A stretch of 27,777 nt of DNA from a virus. The translations under genes and the position numbers were made by a program. Below, one piece after another: positions 13,612 through 27,777 of the stretch. Where the stretch lies: IMG/VR virus record IMGVR_UViG_3300022851_000090, positions 1-27,777 of that record. One strand, written 5' to 3'. Position 1 is the stretch's first letter, and the number at the start of each line of letters is the position of its first letter. The notes under the pieces were generated by a model, which ran no database searches, was not told where the DNA came from, and saw nothing but the letters and a program-made list of their open reading frames with translations.

Positions 13612-13613
13612 AC

Positions 13614-14009: not shown

Positions 14010-17000
14010 TCGCATTTGTCGCCGCCATTGGTACAGCCGCCGCAGGTCTTGTCGGGATTGCTGTTGTAGGCGGTGCCGCGTTTGCCGTTGGCGCCGCAAT
14101 TATTGTCGGCGGTACAATGCTCGTTACCAAACTGGCAAAGCCCGGCATAAACCAAGGCATCAAAGACAATGATCGCTCGCGGCAAGTCACAGCCAGGGGC
14201 ACAATCGAAAGCCAGAAAATAATTTACGGCGAGGCTCTGGTATCGGGTCCGCTTTCGTTTGTCGGTGTTAGCGGATCAGGCAATAAAAAACTGCATCACG
14301 TTGTGGCGCTGGCAGGGCACCCGGTCGAGGCAATCACAGAAATATGGCTCGACGATCAAATTATCACAGCGGCCAATATTGCCGGTGATAATTGGGTTGA
14401 GTCGGGTACATTCGCGCCGCTCGGTGGCGAGGATATTGTCAAGATAGTCAAGAATCTAGGCACATCAACGCAAGTGGCCGACACCGACCTGGTAGCAGGA
14501 TTCACCGGTTATACGTCAGATCACCGAGGCAGAGGTATTGCCAACATTGCAACAACATTCGTACTCAATAACTCAAGTCAGGAACTTTGGGACAAATACG
14601 CGCCCAACAACATCAAAGCCTTGGTGCAGGGGCGCAATGAGGTGTACGACCCGAGGCTAGATAGTACAGTAGGCGAAAGCCCTACGAGTGCAACATACCA
14701 GGCATACACCGACAACCCGGCGCTTTGCGTTGTGGACTATCTAGTTAATGCCAGGTTTGGCATGGGTATTGCTGTATCTAAAATCGACTGGGCGGCAGTA
14801 GTTACCGCAGCCGACGCATGCGACCAAACAGTGGCGATACCTACATCGGCAACACAAAAGCGATTCACCGCTAACGGCGTTTTGTTTGCAACGGATAAGC
14901 ACCAAATCAACATTAATAAATTGCTGTCGTCTATGAATGGAACGCTTATATACACCGGTGGGATTTACGTTGTCCGGGCGGGAATATACGAGGCGCCGAC
15001 CGAATCGCTGGATGAGGACGATTTGATTGGACCCATCACGGTCAAAACCAGCGTAGAAAGGTCAGAGCGGTTCAACACTTGCGGCGGCATTTTCATTGAC
15101 CCGGCACAACAGCATAAGTCAATGGAATTCCCAAAGGTCCAGCTTACCGCAGCGTTAAACCGCGACAATGGCGAGGTACTCGAGCGTGAGATAGATTTAC
15201 CGTTTACAAATTCGAGCTACATGGCGCAGCGCATCGCTAACAAGTTGGTTCAATTGAGCGACCAACAGAAAATAGTTAGCTTCCCCTGCAATCTCAGCGG
15301 GTTGCGGGTTGCCGTTGGGGATCGCGTCAATTTGACGGTTGAAGATTTCGGATGGACTAACAAGGTTTTTCGTTGTATGGCCTGGGCTTTCTCGGACAAC
15401 GGCGGCGTTGATTTAACATTGGTCGAAGATGATTCTGGCAGTTACGCGGATCCTGCGGAGGGTGCGTATTCAACGGTAACATCAACCGGTGTGATCGTTG
15501 ATGGTTTTCCAGGCGTACCTGACCCGCAGAATCTAGCCGCCGCAGCGGGCATCAAGTCGATAGACTTGAACTGGACCAACCCGGAGAACGTTAGCAAGTT
15601 TGCCGGCGTTATTTTATACGCATCGGAAACATCCGCATGGGGCGCGGCGGTTGAGATCGGGCGCGGTATGCTAACATCGTTCAAGCACGACGCTAGTACA
15701 ACAGCGGATCCGATCACTAATGGTGATGAACGGTGGTATTGGGTACGCGCAATCGGCACAGGATCATCCGGTCAGGTTCTATCCGACCGCAACCCAGACA
15801 ATGACACAAGCACCATTACCGCAACAGCGGCACTTAACCAGGCGCAGGCGGTCGAGTGGGCCGCTGTAGCTGATGGGGCGGGCAATCGACCAGACAACAA
15901 CGCAGATGTCACTGGCGAGAACACATTTGTACCAGCAGTCAGTTGGCCGTTTGCGGCGAGTTCGCTTGATGGGTTTTCGGCTACCAACAATTCAACTTTG
16001 GTTAGCCAAAACAACGGCACAGTTCGGTTGTCTGCAACGGGCTTAGACCCGATTCTCGAAAGCCCATCTGGATTAACGGTGGTAGGCGCAGACAACTTTA
16101 TTATCCGCGCTAGAGTATGGCGTATATCTGGCAGCACATGGGATGGAAAGCTGTTCTACTCAACAGCAGGGCATGCTTTTTCTGGCTCGTATTATAAGGA
16201 TCACAGCGACACGACAACCACAGGTCAATGGGTCATTATGGAGTGGGATATGTCGTCGCTTACTATTGGCGGCACAGATTGGATTGATAATACAATTCTA
16301 CAAATCAGGCTAGATTTGGGTTTCGGTTCAGGAGATGACTTTCTAATTGATTGGGTAACGATTGGCAGAAAAAGCGGAACTAGTGCGCCTGGCAATGCAG
16401 ACGTCACAGGCTTAAACACTTCACTCAACACAACCAACGTGGGCGGAACGGCAGCCGCTACAGTTGAATCAGGTGCGGCTTCGGGTGCTACGGCATCGCA
16501 GGCTACAGGTGTGGCCAACAATGCTGATGTAACTGGCTCAAACACTTCGAACAACACAAACAACGTAGGCGGAACAGCAGCCGCTACAGTTGAATCAGGT
16601 GCGGCTTCGGGTGCTACGGCATCACAAGCCACCGGGGTTGCCAATGGCGCCCAAGTCAATACCATAGATGCAGGAGATGGACTGGCCGCACTAGACTCAA
16701 CCGCAAATAATAAACTATCAGGTATCGCTACTGGTGCCACTATCAACATATCAACAACGGGTACAGCGTTTCCTGCGGGCGGTAACACTGGTGATTTTTA
16801 TCATCGTACTGGATCAACTGCGCCAGGTATTTATTTGAAGATACTTGGCGCTTGGATATTGACAGCCATAGACCCAACAGGAGATTTGATAGGTAAGATC
16901 AATGGCATTGCAGTCGCAACTGTAACGGCTGGCGCCTCATTGGGCGGTACATCATCGCAGGCTACAGGTGTGGCCAACAATGCAGATGTCACTGGCGAGA

Positions 17001-18403
17001 ACACATTTGTACCAGCAGTCAGTTGGCCGTTTGCGGCGAGTTCGCTTGATGGGTTTCTTACTGCCAATGCAACTCTTGTTAGCCAAAACAACGGCACAGT
17101 TCGGCTAGATTCGACAGGTTCAGATCCGATTCTCGCAAGCCCATCTGGATTAACGGTGGTAGGCGCGGACAATTTCATTGTTCGAGCCAGAGTACAGCGT
17201 GTCGCTGGAAGCGCATGGGATGGTTCACTGTACTACTCAACAGCAGGACACGGTGAAACAGGCTCGTATTATAAGGCCCATACCGACACAACGGTCACTG
17301 GGCAATGGATCGTCGTAGAGTGGGATATGTCGGCGCTTACTGTTGGCGGTACTGATTGGATTGATAATACAATCCTACAAATCAGGCTCGATTTAGGGGC
17401 ATCAGCGAGTGATGACTTTCTGATTGATTGGATAACGATAGGGCGCAAGAGCAGCATCGCGACCATACCTACAGCACTCGGCGATGTTATAGAATCATTG
17501 AGTCAAAATCTTCTGCCCAACTGGAATTTCTCGATTGTAGATTCCGAAGGTAAGCCTGCTGGGATTAAATCTACCGAAGGCATTACCAGTAGATCACAAG
17601 TGCAGTTTGGCGGTATAGGCATCCAAATTCTTGGAACGCCAGATAGCACAGTGGCCTATGGATTCCCAGCAATCCCGATTGATGATGCTCAGGTGTATAG
17701 CGTAACAATACGGCATAAGTCATCGGCAGCAGACGCTGATGGTTTGTATCTACGGTTTGAAGAACTAAACTCTGCGTTGCCAAATGGTAAGACCCATGTG
17801 GGCACTGCGGACGGCTCCTCAGTATCTGCTACTCGAACAGGAGTTGTAGACTTGGTTAGTAATGGCCCAATGCCGGGCACATCGACCGTAGAAAATACCT
17901 ACGCCTACACACCTACAGCGGGAACTAAATATGCCTCATTTAGTATGTATAACTGGAGCGGTTTTGCTGGCACCTATGAGGTGGAATTCGTACAGATTAC
18001 ATCTGCATTTTCTGGTGACATTGGGGCGCATGGACACACGGCACAAGGCAGCCCAGGGGGGAAAGTTTGGAACGCCAACGGCAGCGGCGTATGGCAATCA
18101 GGCAATCCTACATTTGATCTGGTCGCTGAACTGAGCAACGCCGATGGTACGTTGGTAGCGTCTAGAACTCTACGCGGAACGATGACAACTAGCACAGGCA
18201 ATATATCTGTAACAGCAGTCAGCAGCACAGCGGACGCTGGTTACTCAACAGCATATGCGACAACCGCAAACGCCTCAAAATTCCCGTTAGCCACTGTCAC
18301 ATTCACAATGCCTTCAGGTAAGAAAGTGACTCAATTATTATCATGGATTGCTATAGACCCATCTACAGCAGGCGGATTGCCTGTAACGGGAGGAGGAAAA
18401 TAA
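13997..18403 (+). CDS. Central tail-tip / receptor-binding protein (lambda J-like)
   Basis: A 1468-residue protein, the largest in the window. The N-terminus has a hydrophobic double segment (residues about 3-45). The tip core follows with ALVQGRNEVYDPR and SATYQAYTDNPALCVVDYL then FGMGIAVSKIDW, the classical TipJ signature. A fibronectin type III-like domain begins near residue 504 (VPDPQNLAAAAGIKSIDLNW). The C-terminal half is modular: two copies of a beta-rich, lectin- or carbohydrate-binding-like domain (residues about 636-794 and 996-1152) flank a low-complexity Ala/Gly/Thr repeat region. The last part probably makes host contact. ATG 13997 has GAGGG about 10 bases upstream and is preferred over TTG 13988. 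It overlaps both neighbours. Confidence 0.9.
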   Translation: MPPVIAFVAAIGTAAAGLVGIAVVGGAAFAVGAAIIVGGTMLVTKLAKPGINQGIKDNDRSRQVTARGTIESQKIIYGEALVSGPLSFVGVSGSGNKKLHHVVALAGHPVEAITEIWLDDQIITAANIAGDNWVESGTFAPLGGEDIVKIVKNLGTSTQVADTDLVAGFTGYTSDHRGRGIANIATTFVLNNSSQELWDKYAPNNIKALVQGRNEVYDPRLDSTVGESPTSATYQAYTDNPALCVVDYLVNARFGMGIAVSKIDWAAVVTAADACDQTVAIPTSATQKRFTANGVLFATDKHQININKLLSSMNGTLIYTGGIYVVRAGIYEAPTESLDEDDLIGPITVKTSVERSERFNTCGGIFIDPAQQHKSMEFPKVQLTAALNRDNGEVLEREIDLPFTNSSYMAQRIANKLVQLSDQQKIVSFPCNLSGLRVAVGDRVNLTVEDFGWTNKVFRCMAWAFSDNGGVDLTLVEDDSGSYADPAEGAYSTVTSTGVIVDGFPGVPDPQNLAAAAGIKSIDLNWTNPENVSKFAGVILYASETSAWGAAVEIGRGMLTSFKHDASTTADPITNGDERWYWVRAIGTGSSGQVLSDRNPDNDTSTITATAALNQAQAVEWAAVADGAGNRPDNNADVTGENTFVPAVSWPFAASSLDGFSATNNSTLVSQNNGTVRLSATGLDPILESPSGLTVVGADNFIIRARVWRISGSTWDGKLFYSTAGHAFSGSYYKDHSDTTTTGQWVIMEWDMSSLTIGGTDWIDNTILQIRLDLGFGSGDDFLIDWVTIGRKSGTSAPGNADVTGLNTSLNTTNVGGTAAATVESGAASGATASQATGVANNADVTGSNTSNNTNNVGGTAAATVESGAASGATASQATGVANGAQVNTIDAGDGLAALDSTANNKLSGIATGATINISTTGTAFPAGGNTGDFYHRTGSTAPGIYLKILGAWILTAIDPTGDLIGKINGIAVATVTAGASLGGTSSQATGVANNADVTGENTFVPAVSWPFAASSLDGFLTANATLVSQNNGTVRLDSTGSDPILASPSGLTVVGADNFIVRARVQRVAGSAWDGSLYYSTAGHGETGSYYKAHTDTTVTGQWIVVEWDMSALTVGGTDWIDNTILQIRLDLGASASDDFLIDWITIGRKSSIATIPTALGDVIESLSQNLLPNWNFSIVDSEGKPAGIKSTEGITSRSQVQFGGIGIQILGTPDSTVAYGFPAIPIDDAQVYSVTIRHKSSAADADGLYLRFEELNSALPNGKTHVGTADGSSVSATRTGVVDLVSNGPMPGTSTVENTYAYTPTAGTKYASFSMYNWSGFAGTYEVEFVQITSAFSGDIGAHGHTAQGSPGGKVWNANGSGVWQSGNPTFDLVAELSNADGTLVASRTLRGTMTTSTGNISVTAVSSTADAGYSTAYATTANASKFPLATVTFTMPSGKKVTQLLSWIAIDPSTAGGLPVTGGGK
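15902..16376 (+). repeat. Domain duplication in the tail-tip gene, copy A
   Basis: Its first 75 bases are identical to copy B (16982-17452), and the rest is similar with many third-position and some codon changes. The offset falls from 1080 to 1076-1077 bases because of small indels. It encodes FVPAVSWPFAASSLDGF..., DNFIIRARV..., YSTAGH... and DDFLIDWVTIGRKS. Confidence 0.88.
16397..16648 (+). repeat. Tandem 126-base repeats in the tail-tip gene
   Basis: Two 42-codon units at about 16397-16522 and 16523-16648 encode NNVGGTAAATVESGAASGAT followed by ASQATGVAN. They are nearly identical at the base level. The final piece of the unit (GGTSSQATGVANNADVTG) recurs once more just before copy B near 16945-16993, so the linker and the flanking domains were probably copied together. 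Confidence 0.88.
16982..17452 (+). repeat. Domain duplication in the tail-tip gene, copy B
   Basis: Second copy of the beta-rich domain described at 15902-16376. The block is identical through 17056 and then diverges, e.g. DNFIVRARVQRVAG against DNFIIRARVWRISG. Divergence is in frame, so both copies are under protein-level constraint. Confidence 0.88.
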
Positions 18404-18915
18404 TGTTATTAAGAAAGCCTGTGATGGCCGATTATCAATTTGTATTAGAGTGCTATGCCGACTGGCCGATAACTTCTCATTCAGGAGTAATTACTGTTGA
18501 TAAAGTGAGTAGCTGGATTCAACGCTGGATAGCAAGAGAGGATGAAACTTGTCTTGTAGCGGAGGATGCCGAGGTTCCAGTCGGGATTATACTCTACTCC
18601 ATTCTTGATCCAAGTGGCCCCGAAGTATCCATTGACGATCCTGATTTTGTTGGAGCGAATGAGCGCGTTGCCAAGGTACATAATATCATTGTGCATCCAG
18701 ACCATAGACGAAAAGGCTTTCATAACCAGATGGCAACAATGACATGGGAACATGAAGCCGAAAAAGGCATAGATAGGGCGGTGTTTGACGCGGTAGCTGG
18801 GCCTATACGAGATAAGGTCATTGGTAAGAAAGTATTAGGTGATGCCAGCTACAAATTAAAAGGCACCAAGCTGGGTGAAACAGGAGAATTGACTATTGGA
18901 GAATTGAGCAAGTGA
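18403..18915 (+). CDS. GNAT-family N-acetyltransferase
   Basis: A 170-residue protein. Residues about 85-108 (VAKVHNIIVHPDHRRKGFHN) form GNAT motif A, with the acetyl-CoA pyrophosphate loop R-R-K-G-F-H; an earlier VPVGIILYSI strand fits the fold. GNAT enzymes transfer an acetyl group from acetyl-CoA to an amine; here the substrate is unknown. The gene starts within TAATG overlapping the tail-tip stop, with a perfect GGAGG 6 bases upstream, so it is probably coexpressed with the tail genes. It may modify a phage structural protein or a host protein. GNAT genes at this place behind tail fibres are known in phages, without clear roles. Confidence 0.85.
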   Translation: MLLRKPVMADYQFVLECYADWPITSHSGVITVDKVSSWIQRWIAREDETCLVAEDAEVPVGIILYSILDPSGPEVSIDDPDFVGANERVAKVHNIIVHPDHRRKGFHNQMATMTWEHEAEKGIDRAVFDAVAGPIRDKVIGKKVLGDASYKLKGTKLGETGELTIGELSK

Positions 18916-18962
18916 ATCAATACAAGGGCGAACTGTACGCAAGCGCGGCAGAGCTTCTGTGA
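18912..18962 (+). CDS. Possible 16-residue leader peptide
   Basis: GTG at 18912 overlaps the GNAT stop (GTGA) and has GGAG about 10 bases upstream; its TGA overlaps the next gene's GTG start (GTGA). The peptide would be VNQYKGELYASAAELL. Both-end overlaps suggest a coupling relay that feeds ribosomes to the HExxH gene, which has a weak ribosome site of its own. It may equally be chance. Confidence 0.25.
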   Translation: MNQYKGELYASAAELL

Positions 18963-19345
18963 GGTTTATTTTCGCATTTGATTGGTTGCCGGTTCCAGTA
19001 TTCTACGTCAAGACATTACGCCTGGCCGGACAGATAAAAATCTACGGTATACCTGTGATCTTAATCAAGGAGCAGTATCGCGATGATGTTGGTTTACATT
19101 ATCACGAACTAGAACACGTTGAGCAATTCTGGCGGGCGTTTCCATTCTACTATTGGAAGAACAGGGACAATCAGTCATTCAGGTTGAAAAACGAGGCATC
19201 AGCATACGCCAGGCAATTGACCTATGCGCCGTCAGATAGCAACTATAACCAGTTTCTTGTTTTTCTATACAACGACTACGGTTTTACTATGGGGCGCCGA
19301 AAGATTAGAATAATATTTGATAACGTAGTTGCCCGGAAAGGATAA
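18959..19345 (+). CDS. HExxH-motif protein, putative zinc metallopeptidase
   Basis: A 128-residue protein starting at GTG 18959. Residues about 47-58 read HYHELEHVEQFW, containing HELEH, a match to the HExxH zinc-binding site of metallopeptidases. A glutamate in the downstream helix (RLKNEASAYARQ, about residue 80) could be the third ligand, as in gluzincins. A hydrophobic N-terminus (FIFAFDWLPVPVFYV) may anchor or export it. It sits between a GNAT gene and the lysis-type genes, so a role in lysis or virion processing is possible. Function is inferred from the motif only. Confidence 0.6.
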   Translation: MRFIFAFDWLPVPVFYVKTLRLAGQIKIYGIPVILIKEQYRDDVGLHYHELEHVEQFWRAFPFYYWKNRDNQSFRLKNEASAYARQLTYAPSDSNYNQFLVFLYNDYGFTMGRRKIRIIFDNVVARKG

Positions 19346-19348
19346 GCA

Positions 19349-19894
19349 ATGATTGATGATCTACATACAAAGGTTTCACAACTGGAAGGGGTCACAACTG
19401 AGTTGGCAAGCCTGCTCGCAATCGCAAGCAGCAATCTTGGCAAGAATGAGGAACACATCGTCCGGTTGCAGACAACAATGGATAGCAGCACGGCTGCAAT
19501 CCTCGACCGGCTAACTGGCTTGCAGGAAATGCAAAGCGTTCACATGGCGCGAAGCGATGAGAAGTTCAAAGGTCAAAAACACACGTTAGATAGAATGATG
19601 GAAAAGGTGGACGATACCGCCGAGAGGTTAGCTGGTAACAATCAGTTAACAGAAACGCTCCGCAATCACACCCATACTCTTTTTGAGCGGATAGATGCCA
19701 CCGATAAAAACCTTACCCTTTCCATGAAAACCGCTTCAAATGGCGGTACGGTATCATCAACGTTTATAGATTCGCCCAATTTCAGATGGGTTATGATCCC
19801 GGTCATTATAATTCTGCTCGGTCTATTCGGTTTAGCAGGGTATAACGTCACCAACGACGCATGGGCGTTGATAGGCGTTCCAAGTGGGGATTAA
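19349..19894 (+). CDS. Coiled-coil protein with C-terminal membrane segment
   Basis: A 181-residue protein. Residues 1-120 are predicted coiled coil (heptad-like Leu/Ile spacing in MIDDLHTKVSQLEGVTTELA and later DRLTGLQEM, LDRMMEKVDD). A single membrane segment lies near residues 146-165 (WVMIPVIIILLGLFGLAGYN). It is followed directly by a holin-like gene overlapping by 11 bases. A place in the lysis cassette is likely, perhaps as a membrane-anchored partner, but I recognise no family. It could be a spanin-like or a holin-regulating protein; no signal peptide or lipobox was seen. Confidence 0.65.
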   Translation: MIDDLHTKVSQLEGVTTELASLLAIASSNLGKNEEHIVRLQTTMDSSTAAILDRLTGLQEMQSVHMARSDEKFKGQKHTLDRMMEKVDDTAERLAGNNQLTETLRNHTHTLFERIDATDKNLTLSMKTASNGGTVSSTFIDSPNFRWVMIPVIIILLGLFGLAGYNVTNDAWALIGVPSGD

Positions 19895-20312
19895 GGACAC
19901 ATTAGTTGCCGCAGCGGGCAAAGCCACAGCCGAGATCATGGGTAGTCTTGGGGTTTTATTCACATCAGATGATGAGCGACTAGGGCACCAGGGTAGAATT
20001 ACCCAGGCTATGAATGACCTGACCAAAGCGCATCTTGATGCTGCTGCGGCGCAAGAATCCGAGCGCAGCGACCGACACGAAACAGATATGAAATCGGACA
20101 GTTGGATGAGTAAAAATATCAGGCCGCTAACGCTGGTGTTTTTGATGGGCTTTTATACGATCATCGCAATTACCGACAGCATCGGCATGCTGGCGTTTGA
20201 CGTTAAGCCAGCATACATATCGCTACTCGAGACATTGATGATGACGGCCTTCGGTTTCTATTTCGTTATGCGTGGCGCCGAGAAGATCACCAAAATTGCA
20301 AAGGACAAGTAA
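19884..20312 (+). CDS. Putative holin (3-transmembrane family-like)
   Basis: A 142-residue protein starting at GTG 19884. The N-terminal half is soluble and charged. The C-terminal half has WMSKNIRPLTLVFLMGFYTI (residues about 78-97), a hydrophobic segment, then SLLETLMMTAFGFYFVMRGA. 'W..knIRPl.L.fl' followed by paired membrane helices resembles the Holin_3TMs family used by some phages and gene transfer agents. It would make membrane lesions to trigger lysis. The downstream DUF5675 gene overlaps the stop (TAATG). No separate endolysin is obvious. Confidence 0.65.
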   Translation: MGIKDTLVAAAGKATAEIMGSLGVLFTSDDERLGHQGRITQAMNDLTKAHLDAAAAQESERSDRHETDMKSDSWMSKNIRPLTLVFLMGFYTIIAITDSIGMLAFDVKPAYISLLETLMMTAFGFYFVMRGAEKITKIAKDK

Positions 20313-20716
20313 TGCAACTGCAACTAACGCGGTTCGCGCACTATCCCGACCGGACCATTGGCCTTATGGAATTGGGCGGCAGGCATTGGTACACCGTCGA
20401 GCGCCCCTGGTTGGACAACGCGCCAAACATTAGCTGTATCCCACCAGGCGGCTATACAATGCGGAAAGTCACATCGCCGCGATTTGGACCGGGCACATGG
20501 GAGGTTGAGAATGTACCAGGGCGGGCGCATATTTTAATTCATGCAGCGAACTGGGCAAAGCAACTCGAGGGTTGCATTGCGCCAGGGCAAGGTTTGTTTG
20601 CTAACCTAGACGGCGTCACGAATTCGAGAAACGCACTAGGCGAGTTGGAACGGATCACCAGCGACACCGAGATAATGACGCTGGTAATCTCGCAGGGACC
20701 GATCCGGGTTATTTGA
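20312..20716 (+). CDS. DUF5675-family protein
   Basis: A 134-residue protein with YTVERPWLDNAPNISCIPPG, YTMRKVTSPRFGPGTW, VPGRAHILIHAANWAKQLEG and GCIAPGQG. This order is characteristic of DUF5675: TVERPW..N.P..SCIP.G, then SPR.G, GR..ILIH.AN and GCIA.G. The family is common next to holins in phages and some workers suspect a cell-wall role. Its His and Cys residues are compatible with catalysis but this is unproven. It is the last gene of the rightward operon, and its 3' end overlaps the convergent gene by 8 bases. Confidence 0.8.
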   Translation: MQLQLTRFAHYPDRTIGLMELGGRHWYTVERPWLDNAPNISCIPPGGYTMRKVTSPRFGPGTWEVENVPGRAHILIHAANWAKQLEGCIAPGQGLFANLDGVTNSRNALGELERITSDTEIMTLVISQGPIRVI

Positions 20717-20894
20717 GAGTATTAGCCGATCGCCGTTGATGTTCAGTTAAACCGATCGGCTCCTGGCCGCTAACACCCGACGGTACCAGGGTTATTGTTT
20801 TGCCTGATTTTAGATATGCATCGACCTCGGCGTCAATGCGAGCCGTTTCGTTTTTCCTGTATTCGGTGGTCCCAAACCTACGCATTCCTTTCAC
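20709..20894 (-). CDS. Small basic protein, last of the minus operon, unknown
   Basis: A 61-residue protein with RRFGTTEYRKNETARIDAEV then DAYLKSGKTITLVPSGVSGQ. The segment 'ID.EV.AyL..Gk.I..vP.GvS' resembles small phage proteins often annotated as hypothetical. It starts at GTG 20894 with GGGAG 7 bases upstream; GTG overlaps the stop of the previous gene (GTGA). Its 3' end overlaps that of the DUF5675 gene on the other strand by 8 bases. Function unknown. Confidence 0.65.
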   Translation of the reverse strand: MKGMRRFGTTEYRKNETARIDAEVDAYLKSGKTITLVPSGVSGQEPIGLTEHQRRSANTLK

Positions 20895-20998
20895 CAGACT
20901 ACTCCCAACAATAAGAACACCAGCACCAAAGCGACACCTGCGGCGATCGTTTTGGTGCGCTCACTAGCACGTGCATAGTATCGATCAATGATGTTCAT
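20891..20998 (-). CDS. 35-residue single-pass membrane protein
   Basis: A short frame MNIIDRYYARASERTKTIAA followed by a hydrophobic helix GVALVLVFLLLGVVW. It has an N-terminal charged tail and one predicted membrane helix. Both ends overlap neighbours (ATGA at the start, GTGA at the end), which argues for a real, coupled gene. Function unknown; a lysis- or superinfection-related role is possible but unsupported. Confidence 0.6.
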   Translation of the reverse strand: MNIIDRYYARASERTKTIAAGVALVLVFLLLGVVW

Positions 20999-21150
20999 TC
21001 TGACGCACCCTGGGCCGCGTCGCGGGCTTGTACGAGTTCAGCACAAAAGGATAACGCCTCGCTGAGTTTTGGGCTGTAGCCGAGGCATACAGCGCCGCTA
21101 CGGTGCTTGAATGTTGCCAGATAAAGTCCGTTTGCCATTTTAATTTTCAT
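20995..21150 (-). CDS. 51-residue protein, unknown
   Basis: Encodes MKIKMANGLYLATFKHRSGA, then VCLGYSPKLSEALSFCAELV and QARDAAQGASE. The ATG at 21150 has GGGTGA 3 bases upstream, weak but usable, and lies inside the 3' end of the previous gene by 11 bases. The stop overlaps the next start (ATGA). It resembles no family I recognise. Confidence 0.55.
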   Translation of the reverse strand: MKIKMANGLYLATFKHRSGAVCLGYSPKLSEALSFCAELVQARDAAQGASE

Positions 21151-21343
21151 TATTCACCCATTCTATTAGTTCGTTTGTATCATTGCACCACTTGCAATCC
21201 CGATCCAGCGACACGAAGCCTTGCATGGTGAGTTTATGCAACTGCCCATCAATACAGCGCTTGTTAATCCCATCATGGCAAGGGCAATCGGCCTCCTGCA
21301 ATAGCGTAACGGCGCGTTTATAGATTTGTTTTATACTAGCCAT
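21140..21343 (-). CDS. Small Cys-rich, probably zinc-binding protein
   Basis: A 67-residue protein with C-P-C-H (residues about 20-23), a further Cys about 8 residues on, and C-K-W-C near residue 50-53 (RDCKWCND). The spacing suggests a zinc-binding fold. A strong AAGGAG lies 8 bases before the ATG. It overlaps the next gene by 11 bases. The residues between the Cys clusters (GQLHKLTMQGFVSLDRD) look like a small helix-strand element. Function unknown; a regulator or an inhibitor of a host enzyme is possible. Confidence 0.65.
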   Translation of the reverse strand: MASIKQIYKRAVTLLQEADCPCHDGINKRCIDGQLHKLTMQGFVSLDRDCKWCNDTNELIEWVNNEN

Positions 21344-21389
21344 TTTATTTCTCCTTTTATTTAGTAGGTCCAGGGTGCAGATTACGCGC

Positions 21390-21503
21390 CTACCTGGTTA
21401 GACGTTTCGCCAGAACCGCTTGGGTCTGCGGCAAGGATGGCTTTTCTATGTTGTTGACCAGGCAAACGCATCTGCCATACGCAACAGGGCTAAGGTCAGT
21501 CAT
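21390..21503 (-). CDS. Possible 37-residue protein
   Basis: The frame MTDLSPVAYGRCVCLVNNIE then KPSLPQTQAVLAKRLTR ends in TAG. It fills the otherwise empty stretch between two small genes and has only a poor ribosome site (GGAT and GGG near 10-15 bases). Shared-strand spacing makes it plausible, but codon support is thin. If false, positions 21344-21518 hold only spacer. Confidence 0.35.
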   Translation of the reverse strand: MTDLSPVAYGRCVCLVNNIEKPSLPQTQAVLAKRLTR

Positions 21504-21518
21504 TGCCCAGGATCCGGT

Positions 21519-21617
21519 TTATCGTTTTTCATAGTATGCTATAGCGAGCATCACACCAAACGCGACGCCGATAAACATACCCGAAAAGAACAACAGCAGA
21601 ACATGACTCTCACTCAT
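21519..21617 (-). CDS. 32-residue single-pass membrane protein
   Basis: Encodes MSESHVLLLFFSGMFIGVAF then GVMLAIAYYEKR. One strongly hydrophobic helix spans residues 6-27, ending with a positive EKR. GAGG lies 9 bases before the ATG. The start lies within the 3' end of the previous gene (8-base overlap). Function unknown. Confidence 0.6.
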   Translation of the reverse strand: MSESHVLLLFFSGMFIGVAFGVMLAIAYYEKR

Positions 21618-21786
21618 TGCTATTTGCCTCGGCGACCGGGTCCGCAACAACAGGCTGGCGCATTTCAGCAACCATGGCGCGGAAATCAGATACCCGACTA
21701 GAGTGGATGGTCGCCTCAACCCGTTTTAGGCCGCTCTTGGCAGCCAGGCCGCGGTGCTTTTTGACGTAATCCTTACCGTGTTTCAT
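21610..21786 (-). CDS. Small ribbon-helix-helix-like protein
   Basis: A 58-residue protein, MKHGKDYVKKHRGLAAKSGL then KRVEATIHSSRVSDFRAMVA. The 'GLKRVEATIHSSRVSDFRAMVAEM' stretch recalls a ribbon-helix-helix DNA-binding fold: a short beta strand followed by a helix. GGAG lies 6 bases before the ATG. The start overlaps the previous stop (ATGA). Such proteins often repress phage promoters, and one candidate operator lies upstream at 23193-23224. This link is inference. Confidence 0.55.
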   Translation of the reverse strand: MKHGKDYVKKHRGLAAKSGLKRVEATIHSSRVSDFRAMVAEMRQPVVADPVAEANSNE

Positions 21787-21980
21787 ACATTACTCCATTT
21801 ATCCTCGGGCATGGTTGCCTGATCATCTCTGCGCCTTCCAACCGATTCGTAACTGGCGGCGAATGATACGCACATCAACCAGACTCCAAACGCGCCCCAC
21901 GGCCCTACATGAACCACCAGCACCCCTGTGGATAGCAAAAAGAAAACCGTTGAAATCATACTCCACGTGCGTGATTTCAT
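21783..21980 (-). CDS. Small two-helix membrane protein
   Basis: A 65-residue protein with two hydrophobic stretches (SMISTVFFLLSTGVLVVHVG and WGAFGVWLMCVSFAASY) followed by a charged tail (GRRRDDQATMPEDKW). The ATG at 21980 is preceded by AGAGG 9 bases upstream. It ends in an ATGA overlap with the next gene. Function unknown; a holin-like or immunity role is conceivable but unsupported. Confidence 0.6.
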   Translation of the reverse strand: MKSRTWSMISTVFFLLSTGVLVVHVGPWGAFGVWLMCVSFAASYESVGRRRDDQATMPEDKWSNV

Positions 21981-21992
21981 GCTGCCTGCCTC

Positions 21993-22148
21993 TTATTGGT
22001 ATTGATTTGGTCGCCCTACGTTTCTAAAGTGTGTCGCCTGCTTCCCGTTAGCTATTTTTAAAACAGTCAAACCCCCAGCCCAAAAAACGCAATGGCTTGG
22101 CTTTACGACCATCGCGTCATATTTTTCTATAGGCTCCCAAAAGCTCAC
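21993..22148 (-). CDS. 51-residue protein coupled to the PP-loop gene
   Basis: GTG at 22148 overlaps the TGA of the PAPS-reductase-like gene (GTGA). The product starts VSFWEPIEKYDAMVVKPSHC and continues VFWAGGLTVLKIANGKQATH and FRNVGRPNQYQ. An internal ATG (codon 13) is an alternative start. It is slightly basic with one Cys; no family recognised. The overlap and the continuous coding of this stretch argue that it is real. Confidence 0.55.
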   Translation of the reverse strand: MSFWEPIEKYDAMVVKPSHCVFWAGGLTVLKIANGKQATHFRNVGRPNQYQ

Positions 22149-22918
22149 AACATGCACTCACAAGGCATATCAGCCTCTGGATAATTAAACATATCATCCG
22201 TTGCTATCACGTTCTTCCAAGCAAAATGGCCGCGCCCCAATCCTTTGATGCTGGTCAATTCTGCGTTTTCTTCCATTGCTACGGCTCGCGCCATTAGATC
22301 TGGGTGACTTGCGTTAAGTGCGCGAATCTCCCCTATTTTTGAATTCGGGCAAAAGAAACAGGCAGACTTTCCCGGCAGCGGCAAGCCTTTTGACTTAATC
22401 AGGTCAATGCAATCGTCCCGGCCCATACCCCACTCAATTAGTGGATACCAGTAATCGTATTTGTGGTCTGAGTAATCCTTCGCCGCTCGCCGAGGCTCGT
22501 CCGCATCAAAAAACACAACTTTCCGCAACTGTCGCCCAGCCTTCCATTCTTCTTTTGCTACGTGCCAGTTATTAACAAATTTGTCTTGAGGGGCGATTTT
22601 AAATTTCTGGCTGCAGGCCTTAAATCCGTAAGCAATTGAGGGGAGCATTTTTTTATCTAAACAATTTTCCTCCAAGGTCATTACGTCACCATGCTTATCA
22701 ACCTTTTTTACTGTCGTAACTTGCGGCCAGTTTCTAGCCCTAAGCCAATCGTTCATTGTTTTAACCGTTTCGTATGTTTCGGGCTTCTCGCCGCCAGTGT
22801 CTGCAAACAAGATTAAATCCGGCATATAGCCACGATCCTCAAGCGCCAACAATCCGGCCACTGAATTTGTGCCGCCGCCAAAACTAACAACTAACTTTTG
22901 CTCAATTTCTGAACCCAT
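22145..22918 (-). CDS. PAPS reductase-like PP-loop protein
   Basis: A 257-residue protein of the PP-loop (adenine nucleotide alpha-hydrolase) superfamily. The nucleotide loop is LVVSFGGGTNSVAGLLAL (residues about 9-26), where GGGTNS replaces the SGGKDS of standard PAPS reductases, a known phage subgroup. DLILFADTGGEKPETYETV follows. A C-terminal Cys pair (SACFFCPNSK, residues about 187-196) may bind metal or carry sulfur. The enzyme would use ATP or an adenylated substrate; the true reaction is unknown. Candidates are sulfur transfer, a DNA or tRNA modification, or sulfate reduction. It is cotranscribed with an upstream Cys-rich gene (TAATG overlap). Confidence 0.85.
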   Translation of the reverse strand: MGSEIEQKLVVSFGGGTNSVAGLLALEDRGYMPDLILFADTGGEKPETYETVKTMNDWLRARNWPQVTTVKKVDKHGDVMTLEENCLDKKMLPSIAYGFKACSQKFKIAPQDKFVNNWHVAKEEWKAGRQLRKVVFFDADEPRRAAKDYSDHKYDYWYPLIEWGMGRDDCIDLIKSKGLPLPGKSACFFCPNSKIGEIRALNASHPDLMARAVAMEENAELTSIKGLGRGHFAWKNVIATDDMFNYPEADMPCECML

Positions 22919-23160
22919 TACGGCGCACCACTTATGAAAACAGCTATTTTGTCTTTTTTTATCTCGCCTTTTTCGATGCTGTATTCAAGCCCACATGGAA
23001 AGCATTTTTTACAAAATGAAGTCCCGCTGGATTGCTTTGCAATTTCTACGCTAACGACTCTGAACTTGCCGCTTCTACCGTTGCAGATGGAAGAGCTGTT
23101 CAAGCCTATGTGGTACATTCCGGTTTTCGATCTAAGTATGTTTTCCATTTTGTGCGCCAT
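22918..23160 (-). CDS. Cys-rich small protein preceding the PP-loop gene
   Basis: An 80-residue protein starting at ATG 23160 (MAHKMENILRSKTGMYHIGL). It contains a C-K-K-C-F-P-C cluster near residues 50-56 (SGTSFCKKCFPCGLEYS), suggesting zinc or iron-sulfur binding. The upstream in-frame ATG at 23205 lies in the promoter region, so the downstream start is preferred; AGG lies 6 bases upstream. The stop overlaps the next start (TAATG). First gene of the second minus operon. Function unknown, but pairing with a PP-loop enzyme may be meaningful. Confidence 0.65.
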   Translation of the reverse strand: MAHKMENILRSKTGMYHIGLNSSSICNGRSGKFRVVSVEIAKQSSGTSFCKKCFPCGLEYSIEKGEIKKDKIAVFISGAP

Positions 23161-23182
23161 TGTTTGCCTGTTTATGTCCTCT

Positions 23183-23212
23183 ATTATATACCTTACCGGA
23201 AACATAATACAA
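23183..23212 (-). promoter_or_regulatory. Promoter of the second minus operon
   Basis: On the minus strand TATAAT occupies 23183-23188 and TTGTAT (4 of 6 to the -35 consensus) 23207-23212, with 18 bases between. Initiation would fall near 23176, and the first ATG is at 23160. The -35 hexamer and much of the spacer are covered by the inverted repeat at 23193-23224. Confidence 0.6.
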
Positions 23213-23224
23213 TGTTTCCGGTAA
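23193..23224. repeat. Inverted repeat with 13-base arms, candidate operator
   Basis: TTACCGGAAACAT (23193-23205) is the exact reverse complement of 23212-23224, with a 6-base centre. It overlaps the promoter's spacer and -35 and lies just beyond the helicase stop (23234). No T tract follows on either strand, so it looks more like a binding site than an intrinsic terminator. Confidence 0.75.
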
Positions 23225-23233
23225 TTTTGGGTT

Positions 23234-24580
23234 TTATTTCGCCTTCAAAGCAAGCAACAATTCACGCTGGGTCGCATCCTTATTCGCCAGGACCGACAGC
23301 ACGCGTTCATCCAGGCAACCAGCAGCGACGATATGCAGGATCCGCACAGCGCAAGTTTGGCCCTGGCGATGCAGCCGGGCATTAAACTGCTGGTAGTATT
23401 CCAGGGACCAACACAACCCGAACCAAACAATCAGCGAGCCACCATGCTGCAGGTTTAACCCATGCCCGGCGCTTTGTGGGTGGGCCAACAACATAGAAAT
23501 CTCGCCGCGATTCCAGCGGTCGATCGTTTCCGGGTCCTTGTCCAGCACCACCGCATCGGGAAACCGGGCCTGCAGGCGCTCAAGGTCCGATTTGTAGGAA
23601 TACGCGACCAACATATTCTCGCCAGTATTGTCCTCCACAACATCAACCAGGGCGTCCAGCTTGGCGGTATGCAGCTCGCGGTAGTTTTTGAATTCATCGG
23701 TATAGATTGCGCCATTGCACCATTGCAGTAGCTTATTCGCCAGTACCGCAGCATTAGCCGCCTCGACATCAGCACCATCGGCGAATTCAACCAACAGTTC
23801 GCGCTCGAATTTTTCATATTCGACCTGGACCATTGCTGGCAGCGCAACTGAATAATTGATATTGATGCGCTCGGGCAATTCTAGATAGTCGGCCGCAGCC
23901 ATTGAGATAGCCATCGGCTCAATCAGAGCGTGGATTGTTTTATCAGCACCATCGCGAAGTTTGAACGAATAGCCACCATAGCCCTCGCGCTCAAAGAATC
24001 GTTGCTTGTAGTTGCCAATGGTTCGGCCCAGAGCGGCGCCGAAGTCAATCAGATACATCTGCGACCATATATCCATCAAACCGTTTGGTGCCGGCGTACC
24101 GGTCAACAACACCAAATAGTTGATCAGCGGCGCGATGCTTTTAATCGCCCTAAACCGTTTGGTGCCGGGCGTTTTGAAACTGCTAGATTCATCGATTACG
24201 ACAAAATCAAACGGCCATTTTTTACCGTAGTGCTTGACCAGCCAAGGCACATTCTCTCGGTTGATTGTATAAACATCGTAACCGCCGCGCTGCAGGACAG
24301 CTAACCGATTACGCTCGGTTCCCAGGACGCTACCAACCTTTAGATGGCGTAAGTGGTCCCAACTAGCAACCTCGTTATGCCAAACCGATGCGGCGACGCG
24401 CAACGGCGCAATCACCAGTACTCGGTTAGCCTGGAAAGAGTCCAGCAAATCAACGGCAGCGGTTAAAGCTGTGCAAGTTTTACCCATGCCCAAACCCAAA
24501 AACAATGCACAGCGGCGTTTATCTTTTATGTATTGCACCGCCCGGTTTTGATATGCGTGCATATCATCGCGTAAAAGCAT
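23234..24580 (-). CDS. SNF2-type superfamily II helicase/ATPase
   Basis: A 448-residue protein with helicase motifs in order: I FLGLGMGKTCTAL (residues about 27-39), Ia VLVIAPLRVAASVW, II VVIDESSSFKT, III LLTGTPAPNG, and the C-terminal VI QFNARLHRQGQ. SNF2-like enzymes translocate on double-stranded DNA and remodel protein-DNA complexes. In phage replication modules this member usually follows VRR-NUC, as here. I choose ATG 24580 because GGAGG sits 6 bases upstream; ATG 24586 is too close to it. The start overlaps the VRR-NUC gene by 17 bases. The protein is shorter than cellular SNF2 proteins but both RecA domains are complete. Confidence 0.93.
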   Translation of the reverse strand: MLLRDDMHAYQNRAVQYIKDKRRCALFLGLGMGKTCTALTAAVDLLDSFQANRVLVIAPLRVAASVWHNEVASWDHLRHLKVGSVLGTERNRLAVLQRGGYDVYTINRENVPWLVKHYGKKWPFDFVVIDESSSFKTPGTKRFRAIKSIAPLINYLVLLTGTPAPNGLMDIWSQMYLIDFGAALGRTIGNYKQRFFEREGYGGYSFKLRDGADKTIHALIEPMAISMAAADYLELPERININYSVALPAMVQVEYEKFERELLVEFADGADVEAANAAVLANKLLQWCNGAIYTDEFKNYRELHTAKLDALVDVVEDNTGENMLVAYSYKSDLERLQARFPDAVVLDKDPETIDRWNRGEISMLLAHPQSAGHGLNLQHGGSLIVWFGLCWSLEYYQQFNARLHRQGQTCAVRILHIVAAGCLDERVLSVLANKDATQRELLLALKAK

Positions 24581-24836
24581 TGGCATCCTCCAGGCTATCG
24601 ATCACCCGCACATCGCAACCTAGTGCCCGGCGGCGATGGTGGTCGGCGTGTTGTTTGCGTGTTGGCTTTTTGCCTGGCGCTTTGAGTTCAACAAAGATAA
24701 TCACGCCACCGGGCAAAGTTACCAGGCGATCGGGCACCGAGCGTTTCGCCGGGCTGGTAAATTTCTCAGCGACACCACCAAGCGATTCAACCCTGGCAAC
24801 CAATGCCCGCTCAATATCGCGTTCTAAAATAGTCAT
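24564..24836 (-). CDS. VRR-NUC domain nuclease
   Basis: A 90-residue single-domain nuclease. The core is KRSVPDRLVTLPGGVIIFVE followed by LKAPGKKPTRKQ: the S-x-x-P-D-R, then E-L-K, then Q pattern of VRR-NUC (PD-(D/E)XK type). The acidic pair D (PDR) and E (VELK), with Lys, would bind the catalytic metal. Stand-alone versions cut branched DNA as homodimers, probably Holliday junctions. GAGG lies 7 bases before the ATG. It overlaps the polymerase stop (ATGA) and the helicase start. Confidence 0.93.
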   Translation of the reverse strand: MTILERDIERALVARVESLGGVAEKFTSPAKRSVPDRLVTLPGGVIIFVELKAPGKKPTRKQHADHHRRRALGCDVRVIDSLEDANAFTR

Positions 24837-26596
24837 ACACCCACCTCGCGTAGTAATTTATTCGCCTCGGCAATGTACCGGGCGTCATCAACCCATGCCC
24901 GTTTAAAACCGGATAGGCGTATCAGCGGTATGCCTCCGGTCGATTTGGGGACTAGATTACCGTTGGTGGCGTAGCGGATACTATCTAGTACAGTATTGTT
25001 CACCCAGTAAAATCGCACCGCTTTACCTAGTTTTACCGTCCCACAAACCGCGCCGCCAGTGACCCGGCGAACGGTGACGAACATCAGCGGATCAGCACAA
25101 CCGGCGATGGTATCCTCGATCGGCGTACCGCGAGCAACATACTCGGCAACCGCATGGGGAATGATCGCCATATCAGGGTTTTTGGCGATGCCGGTTTTAG
25201 CAAAAACACCTTTACCTTTTGCGGAACCGTCAGGTTTAACCGCAACATAATTATTCACATCGCGACTCGCCAGCGCCGCATAATCGGTGCGCTCGAGATC
25301 GAAACTGGTATCCAGCATCCAATCAAACGCCACCTCGTCAACGGTACGCTCCAGGGCGGGCGCGAAGTGGCATATAATGCCGTCAGTGTTTGCCGAGCGG
25401 ATAGCAACGCCACTGGCCTCTAGGCGTTCGATTAACATCAACAGACACAACTGCCCGGTTATAGTGGTTTGGATGAGCAATTCAGGCGCATAGAGTTTAG
25501 AGTATTTACTACCCAGTTTACCGAAGGATCCGTTAACTGCGATTTTCAGAGTGTACGCCGTCACTTCATCACCCTGGTGCTTGGCGAGCATCCGCCGATC
25601 AACAATCGACTGATATACATCAAGAAAAGGTTTACCCATCGAGGTAGGCGCCAGTTGCTGCTGCAGTATGATATTGGGGTAATAGCTGGCAACGTCTAGC
25701 TCGCACAACACCAGATCACCAGCAACCAGGTACTGTGCCTTTTCGCATGAATGCAGGCCACCGATACCCATCTGGTAAGAACCGGCGCCTATAACTATTT
25801 TAGTTTGTTTCAGCCAATCTGGAATCTTGACGGCACCATTACCGCCGAGGGTAAATTCAGTGGTTAGTATGCGCTCGAATATTGCTTGCAGCGACGGTCT
25901 AGAAAACGCAACGATGCCAGGGTTTTGATATTGGAAAACCTCGCGGTCAGTATTGGGCCGTTTGACCTGGCGGCCAGTTCGCGCCGCGAGTTCACTGGTT
26001 ATGATTGCCTCGGCTATTTGGGCATCGGATTTGCTACGCAAATCGATACCGTATCGCGCCGACATATCCTCGCGCAGCGCAATTTGAGGAACCAAATTAT
26101 TATACAACCGTTCGGTTTCATCCAAGTCGTTATCGCAGTAATTCATCACCACGTTGCGGTCTAGCCAATCAAGCAACGCATCAGGCTCAATGGGTAAATC
26201 TTGAATGTTAGGCGAACCGAGACGGGCGCCGTAGATTTTTAAACTGACGCGACCCGGCGCGACTTCAAATAGGTCGATGTGGTCCCAACCGCGATTTAGA
26301 CTGATACCCGCATCCTTCGCAACTACCCAACCAGGGGATCGCCCTTTGATAATGCGATCACATAGAATCTTCAGCGACGCCACAGTAGCACCATCGAGCA
26401 GAGCCGCTATCAGAATCAGATCAAAGTTCAAGCCGTTAAAACTGACGGTCGTGTTGTGCTTCATTAGTTTAGCAATACCGGCCAGGTCGGGCGGGTGCCC
26501 ATCGTAGAATTCAAAGCGTTTATATTTGTCGGTCATTAGATGCTTGGCGGATAGCAGAAAGTAGTTTTTATAAATTTCGACATCAATCACGATCAT
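24833..26596 (-). CDS. Family B DNA polymerase with 3'-5' exonuclease motifs
   Basis: A 587-residue protein. Exonuclease motifs: MIVIDVEIYKNYF (Exo I, residues 1-13), SFNGLNFDLI (Exo II, about 52-61) and YCDNDLDET (Exo III). Polymerase motifs: A LCELDVASYYPNI, B LKIAVNGSFGKLG, C RSANTDGII (NTDG instead of DTDS), and a late KGKG element. This is a family B polymerase of modest length. It would copy the phage genome. ATG 26596 is chosen with AAGG upstream; an in-frame upstream TTG lies inside the terminator hairpin and is rejected. It follows a terminator after the DUF2815 gene. Confidence 0.92.
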   Translation of the reverse strand: MIVIDVEIYKNYFLLSAKHLMTDKYKRFEFYDGHPPDLAGIAKLMKHNTTVSFNGLNFDLILIAALLDGATVASLKILCDRIIKGRSPGWVVAKDAGISLNRGWDHIDLFEVAPGRVSLKIYGARLGSPNIQDLPIEPDALLDWLDRNVVMNYCDNDLDETERLYNNLVPQIALREDMSARYGIDLRSKSDAQIAEAIITSELAARTGRQVKRPNTDREVFQYQNPGIVAFSRPSLQAIFERILTTEFTLGGNGAVKIPDWLKQTKIVIGAGSYQMGIGGLHSCEKAQYLVAGDLVLCELDVASYYPNIILQQQLAPTSMGKPFLDVYQSIVDRRMLAKHQGDEVTAYTLKIAVNGSFGKLGSKYSKLYAPELLIQTTITGQLCLLMLIERLEASGVAIRSANTDGIICHFAPALERTVDEVAFDWMLDTSFDLERTDYAALASRDVNNYVAVKPDGSAKGKGVFAKTGIAKNPDMAIIPHAVAEYVARGTPIEDTIAGCADPLMFVTVRRVTGGAVCGTVKLGKAVRFYWVNNTVLDSIRYATNGNLVPKSTGGIPLIRLSGFKRAWVDDARYIAEANKLLREVGV

Positions 26597-26616
26597 AAGG
26601 GGTAGCCTTATCGGAT

Positions 26617-26642
26617 AGAAAAAAGGCCCACCGAAGTGGGCC
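26617..26642 (-). terminator. Intrinsic terminator with UUCG loop between DUF2815 and polymerase genes
   Basis: On the minus strand GGCCCAC-TTCG-GTGGGCC forms a perfect 7-bp stem with a UUCG tetraloop, followed by six T. It starts 18 bases after the DUF2815 stop and ends about 20 bases before the polymerase ATG. This is a textbook rho-independent terminator. Confidence 0.92.
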
Positions 26643-26659
26643 AAAGGGGAGCGCCCGGT

Positions 26660-27196
26660 TTAGCCAAAGATATCATCGTCGGTGTCTGCATCATCAAAGG
26701 CGTCGAAGTCGTCGCCGCTGGCGGTTGAACCACCCTCGCCAAACGCATCGCCATCTTTAAAGAATTGAACACCGAGCAGGTTAGCGTTCACGCGCTTACC
26801 ATATGCATTCTTTTGATACCAAAGTTCGACGCTGGCGTTAACGTAGCACCCCGAATAAATGCGATTGTCGTCGTCAGTTAACGGTGACTTGTCTCGATCG
26901 ATCACCAGCGGGCGCTTTGCGTTCGAGGCTTTTAGTGACCAGGCGTTTTCATAGCCATCATACTCACTATCGACACCGTCTTTAAGGCACAGCTTATCGG
27001 CACCAAGTTTTGCGCCGTCAAGTTTTTCCTTTATGCCGATTTTCATTTCGGACTGGATTGCTTTGATAACATCAGCATGCTGATCTTTATCGAGCAGTAG
27101 CGTTGCCTCGTATTTCGTTTCCTGACCTTCAAAAGTCGCCTTTTGAAACAGTGAAGGAAAGGAGAGTCTTACATTTTTTAGGGAGATTTTAGCCAT
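26660..27196 (-). CDS. DUF2815 ssDNA-binding-like protein
   Basis: A 178-residue protein starting MAKISLKNVRLSFPSLFQKA with KYEATLLLDKDQHADVIKAI, IYSGCYVNASVELWYQKNAY and NLLGVQFFKDGDAFGEGG. This is the DUF2815 pattern, an OB-fold family that probably coats single-stranded DNA in phage replication modules. The C-terminus is very acidic (DDFDAFDDADTDDDIFG), like the tails of SSB proteins that recruit partners. ATG 27196 is chosen with AGGA about 11 bases upstream; an upstream in-frame ATG (27223) has no better site. A strong terminator follows. Confidence 0.88.
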   Translation of the reverse strand: MAKISLKNVRLSFPSLFQKATFEGQETKYEATLLLDKDQHADVIKAIQSEMKIGIKEKLDGAKLGADKLCLKDGVDSEYDGYENAWSLKASNAKRPLVIDRDKSPLTDDDNRIYSGCYVNASVELWYQKNAYGKRVNANLLGVQFFKDGDAFGEGGSTASGDDFDAFDDADTDDDIFG

Positions 27197-27254
27197 TAGT
27201 TCTATTTCCTGTTTTAAGTTCAATTTAACGCCGCAAAGCGCGACGGGGTTAATA

Positions 27255-27777
27255 CTAAGTTAAATCTTCGAAGTCGTCAACTGAAACATTCACCGCCGGG
27301 CGCTTATCCGAATCAACCACCAGTGTCGGTGCGCCATCCTTGGATTGGATCATTGTTGCAAGTTCGGCGGCGCGTTTTTTGCCCACCAGTTTCTCGGCCT
27401 GGGCTGGGCTGATAATTTTAGCAATGTATATTTTATCGTCACTCTCGACGCCAAAGTCATCAACCAGCGTAGTATAAACGACACCATCATCAACCGACCA
27501 GGACCGCGACTGGTTGCCAGCAACCATTTTATAACCGGGGAAATCCTGACCCGACAGCAGCCGATCTTTGACCGTCGCCGCAATCGCATCGAGCCACGAT
27601 AGAATTAACTTCTTATTGGTTAACGCCAGCGCCATCTGCTCATCGGTAAGCGATTCGACCGGCACAACATCGAGGTCGTCAAATTCGGCCATCATCGTTG
27701 CTTCGGTCATTTTCAATAGTGCTGGGCAAGTAGGTTTTGCGTCGCACCATTGGCATTGTTTCTCGCCGGGGATTCGA
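27255..27777 (-). CDS. DUF2800 Cas4/RecB-like nuclease, C-terminal part (partial)
   Basis: The frame is open to the right edge, so the N-terminal nuclease domain lies outside; 173 C-terminal residues remain. It begins with IPGEKQCQWCDAKPTCPALL, a Cys-x-x-Cys...Cys cluster of the Cas4-like iron-sulfur type. The C-terminal half has LTDEQMALALTNKKLILSWL, FPGYKMVAGNQSRSW and later LVVDSDKRPAVNV, as in DUF2800. It is the first gene of the visible replication cluster, 58 bases before the DUF2815 gene. Internal ATG and TTG codons near 27716 are not the true start. Confidence 0.88.
   Translation of the reverse strand, partial: RIPGEKQCQWCDAKPTCPALLKMTEATMMAEFDDLDVVPVESLTDEQMALALTNKKLILSWLDAIAATVKDRLLSGQDFPGYKMVAGNQSRSWSVDDGVVYTTLVDDFGVESDDKIYIAKIISPAQAEKLVGKKRAAELATMIQSKDGAPTLVVDSDKRPAVNVSVDDFEDLT

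Follow-up and report, generated by a model that had tools for sequence, protein, structure and literature searches.

A small conserved hairpin at the start of a phage DNA polymerase gene: a candidate translational operator behind an intrinsic terminator

Comparative sequence evidence leads us to consider it fairly probable that the junction between the SSB and DNA polymerase genes of the virus record IMGVR_UViG_3300022851_000090, the whole of which (27,777 bases) is the window analyzed here, works as a two-step valve consisting of an intrinsic terminator and then a protein-locked hairpin at the polymerase start. The hairpin belongs to a class that we write as GG-HHRCY-CC with a covarying outer stem, and on our best reading it would act as a translational operator to which a trans-acting protein, in all likelihood the polymerase, binds. 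A sequence-only reading of the window had drawn attention to the terminator; the unusual device at this junction is instead the small hairpin.

The replication module

The minus strand of the window ends in a replication module comprising a DUF2800 fragment, the SSB, the DNA polymerase, a small nuclease, and an SNF2 helicase (Table 1); the last base of the SSB stop codon is 26660, and the polymerase begins with the ATG at 26596..26594. Pfam gives no match for the window polymerase at its default E-value limit (DNA_pol_B appears only at E=0.0085, below the cut-off), and its assignment to family B is a remote profile match: compared with structures, a profile of 17 polymerase relatives (A1) matched 1s5j best (E=1.7e-7), 3k57 at 4.6e-6, and 1clq at 0.051, which we take to be the Sulfolobus, E. 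coli Pol II, and RB69 enzymes, respectively. No Pfam match was found for the nuclease gene either, and its VRR-NUC label is borrowed from other phages, in which the syntenic gene is so annotated. Beyond the helicase, a 13-bp inverted repeat at 23193-23224 (TTACCGGAAACAT...ATGTTTCCGGTAA) covers the start of a small minus-strand ORF (23205..22918) that adjoins a PAPS-reductase-like gene (22145-22918, phrog_424 9e-33).

Table 1. Elements of the SSB-polymerase junction and neighboring replication genes in the window
Feature	Position	Strand	Evidence
Candidate translational operator hairpin, AUAAGG-CUACC-CCUUAU	26595..26611	-	comparative; CM R1 21.8 bits (the window row itself belongs to the model)
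Operator loop CUACC (consensus HHRCY)	26601..26605	-	loop alignment
Shine-Dalgarno-like UAAGG, paired within the operator 5' arm	26606..26610	-	sequence
Intrinsic terminator stem-loop, 7 bp, UUCG loop	26625..26642	-	strict scan; position kept in relatives
T6 tract of the terminator	26619..26624	-	sequence
SSB, Enc34-type ssDNA-binding protein (DUF2815)	26660..27196	-	PF10991 E=4e-38; phrog_112 E=4e-51
Family-B-like DNA polymerase, 587 aa	24833..26596	-	phrog_1252 DNA polymerase E=2e-169
VRR-NUC-type nuclease, overlaps the polymerase stop	24564..24836	-	phrog_93 endonuclease E=5e-26
SNF2-type helicase	23234..24586	-	PF00176 E=1e-13

Occurrence of the hairpin

We assembled 166 polymerase loci including the window from IMG/VR, GTDB genomes, and named phages, and reduced them to 127 representatives, of which 123 were scorable and 4 were cut by contig ends; of at least 586 viral relatives, the best 80 entered this sample. 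The first ten related loci with terminators kept AGG-NNACC-CCU, with neighboring bases changing in pairs. Defined as at least 4 Watson-Crick pairs closing an HHRCY pentaloop between -60 and +12 of the polymerase start, the hairpin was found in 61 of the 123 scorable representatives (3 of the 61 look like chance), as compared with 0.95% of shuffled regions and 10 of the 962 starts of other ORFs in these loci, a frequency on which we rejected a general gene-start motif; the antisense strand of the polymerase starts gave 0 of 123. A looser motif requiring 3 pairs on GG/CC identified 64 of 123 loci after L144 was dropped, and these 64 include two contigs twice, one as L025/L038 and one as L034/L043. 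Judged by stem and loop, L144 was a chance match, as were L125, L141, and L145, which had the motif of at least 4 pairs and were dropped as well.

Searches with a covariance model placed the element almost exclusively at this one gene. Over 81 loci (455,581 bases) 64 matches reached 16.4 bits or more, and only the one in L099 lay elsewhere than at the polymerase start; a match of 15.6 bits at L006:7490, within a coding region reading NDSWATP, was taken as chance. In whole records the best match was at the polymerase in 28 of 30, the two records without a match being that of L091, whose displaced hairpin was missed, and that of phage LP.1. Run on 30 loci sampled later (five of them named phages), which had no part in its building, the model gave 15 matches of at least 14.6 bits in a set that includes close kin of model members (for example L228-L230); 14 lay at the polymerase start and 1 before an ORF inserted ahead of the polymerase. 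In five host MAGs the model found only polymerase copies at 22.5 bits or more, everything else scoring at most 18.1 bits with E of at least 0.73, and a host regulon carrying the hairpin was not seen there.

Two sequences were also sought by exact scans of 2.9 million viral contigs. The 17-base TGAGGCYACYCCTCATG occurs in 16 stretches, 14 at this polymerase and 2 preceding ORFs of 22 and 6 codons; of the 25 stretches with ATAAGGHHACYCCTTATG, 6 are at the polymerase and 1 precedes the ORF inserted ahead of it (L313, on the contig of L227); 3 mark the start of one tail-protein-like family, and the rest precede other ORFs, one of 68 codons and 14 of no more than 34. Rfam 15 returned no match at gathering score in 9 loci, and only sub-threshold chance matches to positions 26500-26750 of the window. 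Nor was a description of this hairpin found in a search of the PMC literature, which is weak evidence of novelty given that subscription papers fall outside that collection.

Anatomy and covariation

In the window the hairpin sits between the T-tract and the AUG, pairing the Shine-Dalgarno sequence and touching the start codon. Its relatives are small and weak, with stems of 4-6 bp and a median stability of -4.2 kcal/mol (range -1.8 to -6.3), as would suit an operator stabilized by a ligand. In the loop, all 71 aligned hairpins have C at position 4, and 70 have a purine at position 3 (the exception being L271, with C); the commonest loops are CUACC (18), CUACU (13), CCACC (9), ACACC (8), and CCACU (7). 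Measured from the conserved CC, the start codon follows after 1-4 nt in 65 of 76 loci, after 9 in L039, and after 10-20 in ten.

The outer stem changes in pairs. Over 70 distinct hairpins, pair 2 is G-C in 69 and A-U in 1; pair 3 is A-U in 57, G-C in 10, U-A in 2, and C-G in 1, and is never unpaired; and pair 4 is G-C in 33, U-A in 15, A-U in 11, C-G in 6, G-U in 1, and unpaired in 4. By requiring GG/CC, the search motif largely fixed pairs 1 and 2, which therefore carry no weight as evidence; the looser motif placed no such demand on pairs 3 and 4. The covariation score for the four inner pairs is 0.468, as compared with 0.113 +/- 0.016 in shuffled alignments (0 of 500 as high) and 0.269 in the best slid control. 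On the polymerase tree, the type of pair changes at least 15 times at pair 4, six times at pair 3, and once at pair 2; the kin of Pseudoalteromonas phage PHS21 (later loci and phage AL) bring new compensatory pairs, as in GUGG-CUACU-CCAC.

A FastTree phylogeny of 122 polymerases with local support places the hairpin-bearing enzymes in one clade of 73 rows (62 with and 11 without the hairpin), PHS21 alone falling outside, and the hairpin label changes 9 times on this tree as compared with 40.8 times when shuffled. The 11 hairpin-less rows comprise 4 cut by contig ends, 2 in which an inserted gene has displaced the hairpin, and 5 true absences (L042, L067, L084, L113, and L115), which have the polymerase and from which we conclude that the hairpin is dispensable. 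It is also absent from Vibrio LP.1, the sister of PHS21 in the tree, and from Vibrio 1.017.O, AchV4, Acidovorax ACPWH, Hafnia yong3, and Pseudomonas JG054. All nameable hosts are Gammaproteobacteria: Pseudoalteromonas for the cultured, hairpin-bearing phages PHS21 and AL, and otherwise Tolumonas or methanotroph MAGs.

Independence from the Shine-Dalgarno sequence and from SSB

A Shine-Dalgarno-like site is confined to the 5' arm of the hairpin in 66 of 76 hairpin loci; in the other 10, such a site (AGGA, AAGG, AGGT, or GGA) lies 3' of the hairpin. With the 5' arm thus at liberty to vary, pair 3 departs from A-U in 7 of these 10 as compared with 6 of the 66, and yet pairing and loop persist. 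The element is thus more than a Shine-Dalgarno hairpin, and we regard this as the strongest argument that the hairpin itself is recognized.

The hairpin is likewise independent of its upstream neighbor. In seven representative loci (L026, L029, L089, L108, L109, L117, and L123) SSB lies 434-851 nt upstream and the hairpin is still at the polymerase, so that terminator and hairpin are separable and a tie between the hairpin and either the SSB gene or the terminator can be rejected. In three of these loci the 440-770 nt gap between SSB and polymerase (L108:690-1480, L117:700-1470, and L109:1020-1480) has no evident ORF and is built of repeated hairpin-like elements (TTGACAGCTTGGAAAGACAAGC...TATCA), possibly non-coding RNAs; L108 and L117 gave no match in Rfam.

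The terminator

The sequence-only reading had described a 7-bp stem, a UUCG loop, and six T between the DUF2815 and polymerase genes, some 20 bases before the polymerase start, and this description is borne out: on the minus strand, 26642..26619 reads GGCCCAC-UUCG-GUGGGCC-U6, 6 of the 7 pairs are G-C, and 22 bases separate the last T from the polymerase ATG. The GC-rich stem, UUCG loop, and T-tract, in that order in the transcribed direction, are those of other intrinsic (Rho-independent) terminators; what differs is the location, inside a co-directional replication cluster and immediately before the polymerase gene. Under a strict rule (at least 6 bp, dG of -12 or lower, and at least 5 T in 6) this is the only match on either strand of the whole window, where a first-order Markov model predicts 0.025 per strand. 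A generic scan of 13000-27777 gave 18 terminators as compared with 15.2 +/- 3.8 in shuffles, no excess, and was dropped as evidence in favor of the strict rule and conservation. Because the fold of the 106-nt region around the terminator is not unusual (z -1.25), the case is made by hairpin, T-tract, and conservation.

Among 75 loci with SSB-polymerase gaps of up to 220 nt (L091 and L099 were left out), 42 have a strict terminator at the junction, where dinucleotide shuffling of these regions would lead one to expect 0.8: 36 of 56 loci with the start hairpin and 6 of 19 without. UUCG is present in 13 of the junction terminators, and the stem sequences differ among loci, indicating that function rather than letters has been conserved; the other 33 junctions have no terminator by the strict rule, and some of them have GC hairpins but few T. 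On these sequence grounds we regard the terminator as genuine. The gap before the polymerase has no sigma-70-like promoter match, and together with the conserved terminator this suggests that polymerase mRNA probably depends on read-through or antitermination. The earlier claim that the gap leaves no room for a promoter agrees with the lack of such a match but was put too strongly, since a promoter could overlap the terminator. The transcriptional model built on that claim is plausible and gains from the retention of the terminator in relatives, but it is half of the control only: it overlooked the second hairpin over the ribosome-binding site, and with a covarying hairpin in the 22-base gap, translational control is at least as likely as termination.

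A proposed two-step valve and its alternatives

In the mechanism that we favor, the terminator would end most transcripts after SSB, as its sequence and conservation suggest, and read-through alone would reach the polymerase, nuclease, and helicase genes. In the read-through mRNA the hairpin, which is defined by comparative evidence and whose action is predicted, would pair the Shine-Dalgarno sequence and abut or overlap the start codon. Weak by itself, it would be opened by ribosomes, until a trans-acting protein recognizing the loop locked it and polymerase translation stopped. Conservation of shape and loop in dozens of distant phages suggests that this is probably a protein-mediated off-switch for the polymerase. 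Because the hairpin follows the polymerase gene, and because T4/RB69 gp43 provides a precedent, the likeliest binder would be polymerase molecules that outnumber the replication forks; possible alternatives are SSB, some other protein of the phage, or one of the host.

Several other accounts must be weighed against this one. The hairpin could be a passive element, an RNA thermometer or a Shine-Dalgarno-sequestering stem that lowers translation with no bound protein, and the weakness of the hairpins and the pairing of the Shine-Dalgarno sequence in most loci are what one would expect of it. But such an element, depending on stem stability only and holding the Shine-Dalgarno sequence within the stem, has no need for a conserved asymmetric loop, and the hairpin is kept in the 10 loci where a Shine-Dalgarno-like site lies outside; we consider a passive element unlikely. 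The purely transcriptional account, in which the high SSB to low polymerase ratio is due to the terminator by itself and the second hairpin reflects no more than incidental pairing of the Shine-Dalgarno sequence, draws on a terminator that is real, conserved, and present even at junctions lacking the second hairpin. It does not explain why a hairpin with a chance rate of about 1% covaries at pairs 3 and 4, keeps HHRCY with the Shine-Dalgarno sequence outside, and stays in place when SSB is not adjacent, and we give this account slightly less credence still. A DNA-level element (a protein-binding palindrome or part of a promoter) would covary too, as palindromes do, but not with an asymmetric conserved loop, no antisense occurrences, and a start codon that follows within 1-4 nt in 65 of the 66 loci lacking a 3' Shine-Dalgarno-like site (9 nt in L039); it is very improbable.

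Should a protein be involved, it might not be the polymerase. SSB would provide an SSB-to-polymerase feedback, its gene is directly upstream in most hairpin loci, and T4 offers a parallel in its SSB, gp32, which according to passages in PMC3014915 and PMC535899 represses translation of its own mRNA. However, the hairpin is at the polymerase gene and not at the SSB gene, and the hairpin-less loci L042, L084, L113, and L115 have SSB and polymerase side by side. SSBs also usually favor unstructured strands, and we rate SSB as binder no higher than the passive element. A host RNA-binding protein of Gammaproteobacteria would agree with the range of nameable hosts, but the five host MAGs hold no other strong copy of the model and the 9 loci searched match no Rfam family at gathering score; this, too, seems quite unlikely, a shade more so than control by the terminator alone.

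Relation to known operators

The textbook example of a DNA polymerase repressing its own mRNA is T4 gp43. Passages in PMC3014915 describe how this family B enzyme represses its own translation by way of an upstream RNA hairpin, with the 3' loop bases AC mattering for binding and with a UAAC loop in the gene 43 operator and CAAC in the SELEX form. The resemblances are i) a family-B polymerase gene, ii) a leader hairpin adjoining the ribosome-binding site, and iii) an inner AC, which alone is common to those loops and HHRCY. The differences are as clear: in T4 the hairpin is found about 40 bases upstream, apart from the sequence recognized over the ribosome-binding site, whereas here a usually 5-base loop stands on GG/CC, with the Shine-Dalgarno sequence inside and the AUG adjacent, and the polymerases are only marginally similar (1clq, E=0.051). 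By anatomy, then, the hairpin is not a gene 43 operator, since position, loop, and stem all differ; by analogy it may work like one, and the T4 parallel may be convergence or chance.

RNA-phage coat protein binds a small hairpin at the replicase start and stops translation, another case of control at the start of a polymerase gene, in which loop, bulge, and binder differ from those considered here. The hairpins of T4-phage homing endonuclease and late genes also pair the ribosome-binding site, but they act through RNA structure and the late-promoter arrangement, and no conserved loop is mentioned in the portions of PMC2988022 that treat them.

If our reading is correct, replication enzymes acting as their own translational repressors would be a recurrent theme in phages rather than a T4 peculiarity, and family-B polymerase starts would have a second class of hairpin, unrelated in sequence and strongly covarying among at least 60 diverged phages. 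The proposal is directly testable, as it involves an element of about 17 nt and, as candidate ligand, one protein of 587 aa, and the hairpin is present in two phages in culture, PHS21 and AL. We would extend it more tentatively, and at rather less than even confidence, to a general picture in which unrelated, widespread phages with the SSB/PolB/VRR-NUC/SNF2 module may control PolB translation autogenously through a GG-HHRCY-CC hairpin over the start codon, behind an intrinsic terminator, the device having been captured by mobile endonuclease genes and extended to primase in one subclade.

Inserted genes and related hairpins

Genes inserted ahead of the polymerase inherit the hairpin in L099, L091, and L227. 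In the first two an ORF that we labeled HNH/AP2-like by eye lies between hairpin and polymerase (L099: hairpin 128-150, ORF 146-667; L091: hairpin 950-972, ORF 986-1500), and its stop overlaps the polymerase ATG (ATGCTGA and TAATG), which suggests translational coupling. In L227 (1180-1520) a 92-aa ORF separates an intact hairpin from the polymerase, whose own leader resembles a degenerate duplicate of the hairpin.

The polymerase gene is itself interrupted in L245, L247 and their kin (viral contigs), in L268, and in L271 (gene from about 1501). The interrupting ORF, again typed by eye, is GIY-YIG-like in L247 and L268 and HNH/AP2-like in L271; in L247 and L268 the C-terminal half begins anew at a Met of its own, and E/K/L-rich, coiled-coil-like ends have been added to both halves. 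This suggests a split polymerase in these two loci like that of Aeromonas phage 25 gene 43, as described in part of PMC2988022.

Similar hairpins occur over two other gene starts. One is that of a divergent primase-like gene in the L010/L059/L066 subclade (L010, minus strand near 523; L200, L201, and L202), with the forms ATTGG-ACACT-CCAAT-G and TTGG-ATACT-CCAA-TG, either a possible second target or inherited chance; the primase start was rejected as a general second target, since the hairpin is limited to L010, L059, and L066, which are close kin, and is absent from the other primase homologues seen. The other, in the three related loci L304, L308, and L317, is that of a family of glycine-rich tail-like proteins, where ATAAGG-UAACY-CCUUAUG covers the start and the loop resembles the T4 UAAC.
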